Assembly (NCBI RefSeq): GCF_003112695.1 | Contig: NZ_BFBP01000002.1 | Coordinates: 299,691 to 363,690 of the forward strand | Reading direction: 5' to 3' | Length of the DNA stretch: 64,000 nt | Source: Azospira sp. I13 | Lineage (GTDB): Bacteria > Pseudomonadota > Gammaproteobacteria > Burkholderiales > Rhodocyclaceae | Shown: in pieces, positions 24,954 through 27,386 of the stretch | Position numbering within the stretch: the stretch's first letter is position 1 | How the letters are laid out: each line of letters opens with the position of its first letter | Notes under the pieces: model-generated | What the model saw: only the letters and a program-made list of their open reading frames with translations | Told to the model about the DNA's origin: nothing | Database searches by the model: none | Program-made: the position numbers and the translations under genes

Positions 24954-25051
24954 GCGGCTCCGACCACCCACGCACCCCGCCACACCCGCCTCCGCCGCCC
25001 GCCTGCCGTTGCGCCCGGGGTCCCGGCGGAGCGCCACCAGGAATGCACACC

Positions 25052-25849
25052 ATGTCCACCGCGCCCATCCCCGACATCCAGAACAGCGAAGACACGCGCC
25101 GCATCCCCATCGACAAGGTGGGCATCAAGGACATCCGCCATCCGGTAAAAATCCGCGACAAGAGCGGCGACGTGCGCCATACGGTGGCCAACTTCAACAT
25201 GACCGTCGGCCTGCCCCACAACTTCAAGGGCACCCACATGTCGCGCTTCGTCGAGATTCTCAACAGCCACGAGCGGGAAATCTCGGTGGAATCTTTCCCT
25301 GCCATGCTCGAGGCCATGGTGGCCCGGCTGGAGGCGAAGACCGGCCAGATCGAGATGCGCTTCCCCTACTTCATCAGCAAAACGGCGCCGGTTTCCGGCG
25401 TGCCCAGCTTGATGGACTACGACGTCACCTTTATCGGCGACATCGACGGTGGCCGCATCCGCTCCACCGTGCGGGTCCTGGTACCGGTCACTAGCCTCTG
25501 CCCCTGCTCCAAGGAAATCAGCGCCTACGGCGCCCACAACCAGCGTTCCCACGTCACTGTCACCGCCCAGCTCAACGCCTTCGTCTGGATCGAGGACCTC
25601 ATCCAGATGGTGGAGGCCCAGGCCTCCTGCGAGCTTTACGGCCTGCTCAAGCGGCCGGACGAGAAGTACGTCACCGAACGGGCCTACGACAACCCCAAGT
25701 TCGTCGAAGACATGGTGCGGGATGTGGCCGCCCGCCTCGATGCCGATGCCCGCATCGACCACTACGTGGTGGAATCGGAAAATTTCGAATCCATCCACAA
25801 CCACTCCGCCTACGCCCTGATCGAAAAGGACAAGCGAGCTGACGTGTAA
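25052..25849 (+). CDS. folE2: GTP cyclohydrolase FolE2 (type IB)
   Basis: 265 residues from the ATG at 25052. An AGGA lies nine bases upstream, whereas the ATG at 25043 would leave no spacer. The family core includes the catalytic cysteine region [10 protein letters not shown] and the HNQRSHVTV segment. Makes 7,8-dihydroneopterin triphosphate for folate and queuosine precursors and works with metals other than zinc. Follows dxs after a 98-base gap. Confidence 0.95.
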
Positions 25850-25937
25850 ATTGCCGCATTGTTGAGAACCATTCCTGAATTCTCTCCACCAATCGGAAAG
25901 CCCGTCCTCTTCGCCGGGCCATCCACAAGGAGAGTTC

Positions 25938-26012
25938 ATGGCTGGCAAATGCTGCAAGAAAGGGTGCAAGAAATGCCCTTGGAGCAAGAAGCGCAAACAG
26001 GCCGGTACGTAG
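25938..26012 (+). CDS. 24-residue Cys/Lys-rich micro-ORF
   Basis: ATG at 25938 with a strong AAGGAG Shine-Dalgarno at 25927-25932, five bases upstream, and a TAG at 26010-26012. The peptide starts MAGKCCKKGCKKCPW, with four cysteines, then continues with a basic tail. Nearly every third residue is Lys or Arg. It lies in the otherwise empty gap between folE2 and the rplS terminator. I do not recognise a family. The cysteine spacing could bind a metal or the basic peptide could bind RNA, but both are guesses. Reality rests on the ribosome binding site and the striking composition. Confidence 0.5.
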   Translation: MAGKCCKKGCKKCPWSKKRKQAGT

Positions 26013-26138
26013 ACGGTAGCGAATGCGGGCCGCCACGCCGGGGAAGGCATCAGCAGGACGTTAGACGGGACGCCCAGATGCCCCAACAGTCGTTCTGGCG
26101 CACCAACCACCCTCTCCCTACCCTCGCCTCCCGGGCAC

Positions 26139-26167
26139 AAAAAAAGGGCGCCTTGCGGCGCCCTTTT
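26139..26167. terminator. Bidirectional terminator between the micro-ORF and rplS
   Basis: GGGCGCC (26146-26152), loop TTGC, GGCGCCC (26157-26163), with an A-run before and a T-run after, so it can stop transcription from both sides. On the minus strand it ends the rpsP-rimM-trmD-rplS operon. The bases between 26013 and 26138 show nothing else. Confidence 0.88.
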
Positions 26168-26187
26168 CATTGCAGCAGCTAAAGCGA

Positions 26188-26559
26188 TTAGCCGCGCTTG
26201 AGTTCCAGCTTTTCCTTGATGCGAGCGGACTTGCCGGAGCGCTGACGCAGGTAGTACAGCTTGGCACGACGCACGTCACCACGACGCTTCACTTCGATGG
26301 AAGCGATCAGGGGGGAGTAGAGCTGGAAAGTACGCTCCACACCTTCGCCGGAGGAAATCTTGCGCACGGTGAAGGCAGAGTTCAGGCCACGGTTACGCTT
26401 GGCGATAACCACGCCTTCGTAAGCCTGGACCCGCTTGCGGGTACCTTCAACGACATTCACACCCACCACCACGGTATCGCCGGGGGCGAAGGTGGGGATG
26501 GTCTTGCCAGCGGTCAGGCGGGCGATTTCTTCTTGTTCCAGTTGTGCAATCAGGTTCAT
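26188..26559 (-). CDS. rplS: 50S ribosomal protein L19
   Basis: 123 residues with the L19 pattern: [30 protein letters not shown], then [13 protein letters not shown] and KLYYLR. Sits at the 30S-50S interface. Last gene of the rpsP-rimM-trmD-rplS operon, 11 bases after trmD. Confidence 0.97.
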
Positions 26560-26570
26560 GTGAGGACTTC

Positions 26571-27386
26571 CTAAAGTTGAGTGCTGCTTTTCATCTCACC
26601 GCATTGCTCCGCTTGCGCTTCTTTTTCAAGTTCGCCGAGGAGTTGCGTAATTTCCTTGGGCAGCTTCTTGCCACCTTCGGTCTGTTGCGTCAGCCATTTG
26701 GCGTACAACTCCGGGCGACGCTCCCGGGTTCGTGCCAGCGACTGCTTGAGCCGCCAGCGGCGAATATTGTTGTGGTGGCCGGAAAACAGCACCGGCGGCA
26801 CCGGCATTCCTTCATAAACTTCGGGCCGGGTGTAATGGGGGCAGTCCAGCAGGCCATCGACGAAGGAGTCCTGCTCGGCCGAGGCGGCATCGTTAAGCAC
26901 GCCAGGCAACTGCCGCACCACGGCATCCATCAGGGCCATGGCCGGGATTTCGCCTCCGGAGAGCACGAAGTCCCCGATCGAGATTTCTTCATCGACGCAG
27001 CGTTCGATCAGACGCTCATCCACACCTTCGTAGCGGCCGCAGAGCAGGATCAACCCCGCTTCCTGGGACAGTTCCATGACCCGTTGATGGGTCAGGGCCT
27101 TACCCTGGGGCGACAGGTAGATCACCCGCGGCTGAGCCACGCCGGCCTGCTGCTGTGATTCCCGGGCGGCCGTGATGGCCTTTTCCAGGGGTTCCGGCAG
27201 CATCACCATGCCGGGACCGCCGCCATAGGGGCGATCGTCCACGGTACGGTAGTTGTTCTCGGTGAAATCCCGGGGATTCCAGGTTCCCAGGTGCCAGCGG
27301 CCATCCTCCAGCGCCCGGCGACTGATGCCGAAGCGGGTGAGGGCAGCAAGCATTTCCGGAAACAGGGTAATGACGTCAAACCGCAT
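26571..27386 (-). CDS. trmD: tRNA (guanine-N1-)-methyltransferase
   Basis: 271 residues from the ATG at 27386, where the family begins ([12 protein letters not shown]). SPOUT methyltransferase forming m1G37. The trefoil-knot motifs LSPQGKAL and [12 protein letters not shown] and the segment DFVLSGGE are all visible. The C-terminus has an extended tail of about 20 charged residues. Co-transcribed with rimM and rplS. Confidence 0.97.

Follow-up and report, generated by a model that had tools for sequence, protein, structure and literature searches.

A Cys-rich micro-ORF between folE2 and rplS in Azospira resembles the C-terminal core of DUF5522 proteins

The described systems closest to the short ORF analyzed here are the uncharacterised Pfam families DUF5522 (PF17653) and Oxidored-like (PF09791). 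DUF5522-type proteins, which occur in many phyla among the matches listed in this work, carry a CCxxGCxxCPW (or CPY) core that is often followed by basic residues (for example CCKNGCKHCPW in the Pedobacter protein L128). We aligned 38 of 70 listed proteins, picked for having 24-48 residues before the core; these have a module Y..G..VFT..YH..RG in front of it, and this motif-selected set shows no variation in Cys spacing or in the Gly, Pro, and Trp. Oxidored-like proteins, of which human OXLD1 is a member, share a CCxxGCxxCxW core and have a longer proline-containing N-terminal part and a longer C-terminal part. Ribosomal protein bL36 and other tiny zinc proteins are also very small and very basic, with four metal-type ligands. 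The literature searched did not contain the names DUF5522, PF09791, or Oxidored-like, nor Chaetomium complex I with oxidoreductase-like, and the portions of the OXLD1 and C1orf53 literature covered held nothing on what such proteins do. Searches for unannotated Cys-rich small proteins gave nothing useful, Azospira oryzae with genome and sORF was not found, and Azospira with small protein matched only a paper whose title concerns lake sediments. The AlphaFold model of a DUF5522 protein is of middling quality (mean pLDDT 70.6, pTM 0.43), with block means of 84 and 74 and the Cys region modelled as coil; Foldseek with this model had no hit at E 0.001 (its best was E 2.4), and the PDB search for DUF5522 gave only the Oxidored-like chain 7zm7_o (E 1.2).

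The core with polar x residues, CC-x-x-G-C-x-x-C-P-W, was found in at least 118 stretches of the genome collection and 9 of the viral collection. The upstream DUF5522 part fits in 114 of the 127 matches listed (the expression used also accepts a bare RG or RR before CC), and on this basis we regard the CCxxGCxxCPW core as characteristic of DUF5522. Among the remaining 13, L067, L151, L152, and L235 look DUF5522-like by eye, L076 is ambiguous, and L099 is the A. oryzae copy described below, while L069, L115, L118, L130, L140, L162, and L164 look like chance frames (upstream DNA inspected for all but L115). A stand-alone frame with its own Shine-Dalgarno sequence and start codon beside the core was seen by eye only for the Azospira copy among the matches listed. 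Five viral-contig proteins (L235, L240, L241, L242, and L243) carry a short variant, LTREyLxxRGKCCxxGCxNCPW, that is nearest in sequence to the Azospira core: RGKCCHHGCKNCPWKK of L240, which passes PF17653 at 30.1 bits, is close to AGKCCKKGCKKCPWSKK. Unlike the Azospira peptide, the viral-contig proteins retain an LTRexLxxRG-like segment in front of the core, and their C-terminal parts are longer.

The micro-ORF lies in the stretch of 64,000 nucleotides of Azospira sp. I13 DNA that was analyzed as a whole and is called the window here. It runs from ATG to TAG at 25938-26012 on the + strand and encodes the 24-aa peptide MAGKCCKKGCKKCPWSKKRKQAGT; a Shine-Dalgarno sequence AAGGAG, read directly from the DNA, is located at 25927-25932 (+), five bases before the ATG. 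Cysteines occupy residues 5, 6, 10, and 13, nine residues are Lys or Arg, and the computed pI and charge at pH 7 are approximately 10.1 and +8.5. The stretch 25950-25982 (+) encodes the Cys4 core CCKKGCKKCPW, the part that resembles the DUF5522 C-terminus. Both the start signals and the four cysteines with many Lys/Arg in 24 residues had been pointed out in an earlier sequence-only reading of this DNA and are present as described; that reading thought the composition unlikely by chance. Counting nested starts and both strands, the window holds 444 ORFs of 15-40 aa that begin with ATG, of which 11 have at least four Cys; two of these 11 show some Shine-Dalgarno-like match, and the micro-ORF is the only one with a 6-base match. 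The window contains a single match to the DNA pattern for CCxxGCxxCPW (x polar), and none of 100 shuffles contains any.

The upstream neighbor is folE2 (25043-25849, +; PF02649, 341 bits), coding for a type IB GTP cyclohydrolase, and the convergent neighbor at 26188-26559 (-) encodes ribosomal protein bL19 and is a gene that we take from its sequence to be rplS (a search with it hits 60 of 61 genomes). A hairpin, GGGCGCC TTGC GGCGCCC with A and T runs on either side, is found at 26139-26167 and is kept in A. oryzae; it was found by eye and is absent from the listing of the consensus terminator scan, and we presume that it is a bidirectional terminator common to folE2/micro-ORF and rplS. The consensus scan gave no + strand terminator-like or promoter-like site between folE2 and the micro-ORF, which makes it probable that the micro-ORF is on the folE2 transcript; no sigma-70-like promoter was seen near the micro-ORF in the window or in A. 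oryzae. Rfam gave five matches in 25800-26600, each under its gathering score. Soon after the folE2 stop codon, a block GAACCATTCCTGA (25866-25878, +) in the spacer before the micro-ORF is kept in A. oryzae, where it reads GAACCATTCTTGA and the spacer around it has diverged. We considered a Fur box for this block (GAACCATTCyTGA) and rejected it, with four mismatches to the TGAGAATnATTCTCA palindrome by eye and no entry in a 3-mismatch scan. In another genome of the same family (G021), a 145-bp unit at L190:632-1428 is repeated 5.5 times with 95% matches; the unit includes the folE2 3' end, so that copies of the folE2 end lie in the folE2/rplS gap of that genome.

One close copy was found among the 61 related genomes searched, in A. 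oryzae DSM 21223 of the same genus (NZ_SHKM01000001.1). It encodes MSGKCCKKGCKKCPWRKKK (19 aa, stop TAG) in the same folE2/rplS gap, with GAGGAG likewise five bases before the ATG. The first 19 codons of the two ORFs align without gaps and differ at 11 of 57 coding bases, distributed 3, 1, and 7 over codon positions 1, 2, and 3, with three amino-acid changes (A2S, S16R, and R19K); the two peptides agree in Cys spacing and in the Gly, Pro, and Trp. In a simulation, 11 random substitutions in codons 2-19 gave a mean of 7.6 amino-acid changes, with a probability of three or fewer of approximately 5e-4. Codons 3-15 have five nucleotide differences and no amino-acid change (simulated P approximately 1e-4, for a stretch picked post hoc from the alignment). 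For comparison, rplS shows the same kind of pattern between the two genomes, with 3, 3, and 25 differences at the three codon positions. In the spacer 5' of the ORF 50 of 91 alignment columns match (8 gapped) vs. 46 of 57 inside the ORF, and the stretch from the ORF to the terminator is 126 bases in the window vs. 18 in A. oryzae. Judged from the two sequences, the protein core is kept between the Azospira copies and the tail varies in length. A conserved frame and a synonymous bias, as looked for in a protein-coding gene, were thus both found, in one relative; the selection test is a small one because just two sequences are compared. The loss of the frame by frameshifts in relatives, which would have spoken against the sequence-only reading, is not seen within the genus: A. 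oryzae keeps the frame, with synonymous-biased change against more diverged flanks. The claim of a real coding mini-gene gains from the syntenic copy, the Cys spacing, the Shine-Dalgarno sequence, and the mostly synonymous change, all of them in a single relative, and the micro-ORF is very probably a real, selected gene.

The expectation of conservation across Rhodocyclales stood only at the level of the genus. The micro-ORF is present in two of the three genus genomes examined, the source genome and A. oryzae; the third (G001) gave no match, and its folE2/rplS gap lacks such an ORF and shows, by eye, an additional hairpin and T run shortly 3' of folE2. No other convincing copy turned up in 395 sampled genomes of the family, 399 of the order, or 360 of the class, the best E-values elsewhere being 0.004 (family) and 0.007 (order), with none at 0.005 in the class; in these searches the sequence was inspected for matches with a locus, and the A. 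oryzae genome is absent from the class-sample matches. When 30 rplS loci from the 60 rplS-bearing genomes were inspected, folE2 was on the 3' side of rplS inside the locus in 10, and an ORF of this kind occurred only in the gaps of the source genome and A. oryzae. In the 24 loci inspected, the weak family matches (G023 SGLCTKQGCERCPYRS, G003, and G387, among others) depart from the micro-ORF in spacing or at the CC pair and were judged to be chance, and the frames with CKKCPWRKNAQA in one other genus (L233 and L234) are 19-codon open frames without a start codon. Plasmid and phage records gave no match by tblastn at E up to 1, and none of 125 genome-contig and 16 viral-contig pattern stretches was confirmed at E 1e-3, the query being very short.

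Against PF17653, residues 3-18 of the peptide align to model positions 32-47 of 48 (E 2e-4, 21.7 bits). The peptide has the CCxxGCxxCP[WY] core of the family and scores below its curated cut-off of 25 bits, also in a whole-genome search (19.7 bits; A. oryzae copy 18.6). The N-terminal module differs: aligned DUF5522-type proteins have it and the micro-ORF, with just four residues before CC, does not, and the in-frame sequence upstream of the ORF is without such a module in both species. On these sequence comparisons, we describe the micro-ORF product as similar to DUF5522 and, by the tests run, not a member. A profile comparison with the 38 DUF5522-type proteins gave a probability of 97.8 with 63% identity over 19 columns, and 0 of 20,000 composition-preserving shuffles reached the real peptide (29.4 bits vs. 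21.3 for the best shuffle); both results are partly circular because the 38 proteins were collected with the motif from the micro-ORF peptide. Since that set was gathered by the motif itself, the Pfam match is the independent result. In the whole-genome PF17653 search the micro-ORF has the lowest E-value (0.0042) of the matches listed and the A. oryzae copy the fifth lowest (0.0085), with three unrelated-looking stretches between them; since such stretches intervene and matches at E up to 1 also occur in 152 of 297 family genomes and 5 of 14 control genomes, this search alone is indistinct from chance. DUF5522 over the cut-off was present in 0 of 297 family genomes, and a full DUF5522 in 1 of 399 order genomes; being missing in the family sample and rare in the order, it offers no visible nearby donor.

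The likeness to Oxidored-like is weaker. The peptide contains the CCxxGCxxCxW core, and PF09791 aligns to residues 4-16 with E 0.0088 and 16.2 bits, under the curated cut-off of 24 bits; chain o of PDB 7zm7, NCCMSGCVNCVW, matches at E 1.5. It differs in having Pro, not Val, before the Trp, and in lacking the longer flanking parts of the family, and the two Oxidored-like loci inspected (L040 and L014) have neighbors other than those of the micro-ORF. Searched with PF09791, the source genome yielded nothing up to E 10, the micro-ORF included, and 10 of 14 controls matched; in a further search (E 0.01) Oxidored-like was found in 4 of 21 genomes, in some other genera, and was missing from all three genus genomes. 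NCBIfam has no match to the micro-ORF, PHROGs gave a single weak match (E 0.019) to a protein of unknown function, and the PDB search with the peptide returned one designed-looking coil protein (E 0.081). bL36, with which the product can be set side by side by description in size, basic character, and number of ligands, differs in ligand spacing.

We give a probability of roughly one half to the following reading: the micro-ORF, in some Azospira, would be the last cistron of folE2 and encode a selectively maintained, translated mini-metalloprotein with a one-metal Cys4 core and a basic tail that binds a target. It would be co-transcribed with folE2 and translated into a mini-protein of 19-24 residues, whose four Cys in fixed spacing (CCxxGCxxCPW), together with Gly, Pro, and Trp, may enclose a single metal ion, with Zn2+ as the likeliest and an Fe-S centre or Cu(I) as other possibilities. 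This knuckle would be the stand-alone equivalent of the DUF5522 C-terminal Cys4 core, and the Lys/Arg tail may anchor it to RNA, to the ribosome, or to an acidic protein partner. Metal binding is plausible by analogy with DUF5522 and Oxidored-like, whose conserved end the core resembles. FolE2 is a zinc-independent GTP cyclohydrolase, and a metal link of the micro-ORF is for this reason a tempting conjecture. Several results count against this reading: the presence in just two of three genus genomes, with no such ORF in the syntenic gap of G001, the small size of the selection test, the scores below the curated cut-offs of both families, and the outcomes of the PF17653 and PF09791 genome searches and of the structure comparisons given above.

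A redox or thiol peptide, in which reactive thiols scavenge oxidants or electrophiles or loosely buffer metal and no structural metal knuckle forms, would suit four Cys in a soluble-looking peptide of 24 residues, and Azospira has an oxidant-scavenging methionine-rich peptide; a mere store, however, needs no kept Cys spacing, Gly, Pro, and Trp, as seen in both species and in the 38 motif-selected DUF5522-type proteins, and we consider such a peptide unlikely. That the core matches just the last third of PF17653 and that a full DUF5522 is seen once in the order might point to a now functionless remnant of a full-length DUF5522 or Oxidored-like gene with its 5' part lost. The ORF has its own Shine-Dalgarno sequence and ATG in both species, the in-frame upstream sequence bears no N-terminal trace, the change is of the purifying type, and the family genomes have no DUF5522 over the cut-off, all of which makes a remnant very improbable. 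An equally poor case can be made for a chance ORF without function. It is confined to two genomes of a single genus among those searched, and the window alone has 444 short ORFs, but the frame, start, and Shine-Dalgarno spacing are conserved with a synonymous bias, and there is a Pfam-level resemblance; the remnant and the chance frame are both disfavoured by the bias toward synonymous change and by start signals that the two species share.

The least probable explanation, which we regard as hardly credible, is a Cys-responsive leader peptide (attenuator), with ribosome stalling at the Cys codons regulating a downstream gene. The ORF is short and has four Cys codons, two of them adjacent, and poly-Cys leader ORFs reported from mycobacteria offer a precedent (Canestrari et al., 2020, as cited in PMC10117436). 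This ORF, however, is at the 3' end of the presumed transcript, followed by the terminator-like hairpin and opposite-strand genes, and the Lys, Gly, Pro, and Trp codons keep their meaning as do the Cys codons. A leader is disfavoured because no same-strand gene to be regulated follows closely, the next gene, rplS, being on the opposite strand. A last alternative concerns origin only and is compatible with the mini-metalloprotein: the Cys4 core may have arisen de novo in Azospira, its DUF5522 likeness being convergent. The family sample without DUF5522 over the cut-off, the absence from the G001 gap, and a length of 19-24 residues, which is short enough, are in favor of it; the likeness also covers the G-K before CC, the Gly, the Pro-Trp, and the later basic residues, as in L240, and we hold convergence to be possible but somewhat doubtful. 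With only 19 residues to compare, descent from DUF5522 and convergence are inseparable.

A bolder version of the mini-metalloprotein reading, which we think rather unlikely, is that of a genus-restricted, stand-alone metalloprotein of 19-24 residues, perhaps the smallest natural Cys4 knuckle of the DUF5522/Oxidored-like kind, that would act in trans, with RNA, the ribosome, or an Fe-S or sulfur-transfer enzyme as its target. If true, the knuckle alone would carry a function of these families. A natural 19-residue protein that retains only the Cys4 core would be small enough to synthesize and would offer a minimal system in which to test the metal binding and contacts of the core. The micro-ORF also illustrates that approximately 340 bases between ordinary housekeeping genes are enough to conceal a real gene.

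Several gene arrangements were seen among the family proteins. In L063, L122, and L148 (two of these records are genomes of Rhodothermales and Gemmatimonadetes), the frame of the DUF5522 part continues into a WSGGKDSFLA stretch that by eye is PP-loop ATPase-like, and such fusions are a possible functional hint for DUF5522. The Oxidored-like gene of L014 (CCESGCENCVW) adjoins a gene that by eye resembles the tRNA thiolase TtcA. In L090, L124, L129, L155, and L179, three of which are Verrucomicrobia records, a short Cys-rich stretch precedes the DUF5522 part and a long, possibly exported part follows it in one frame.
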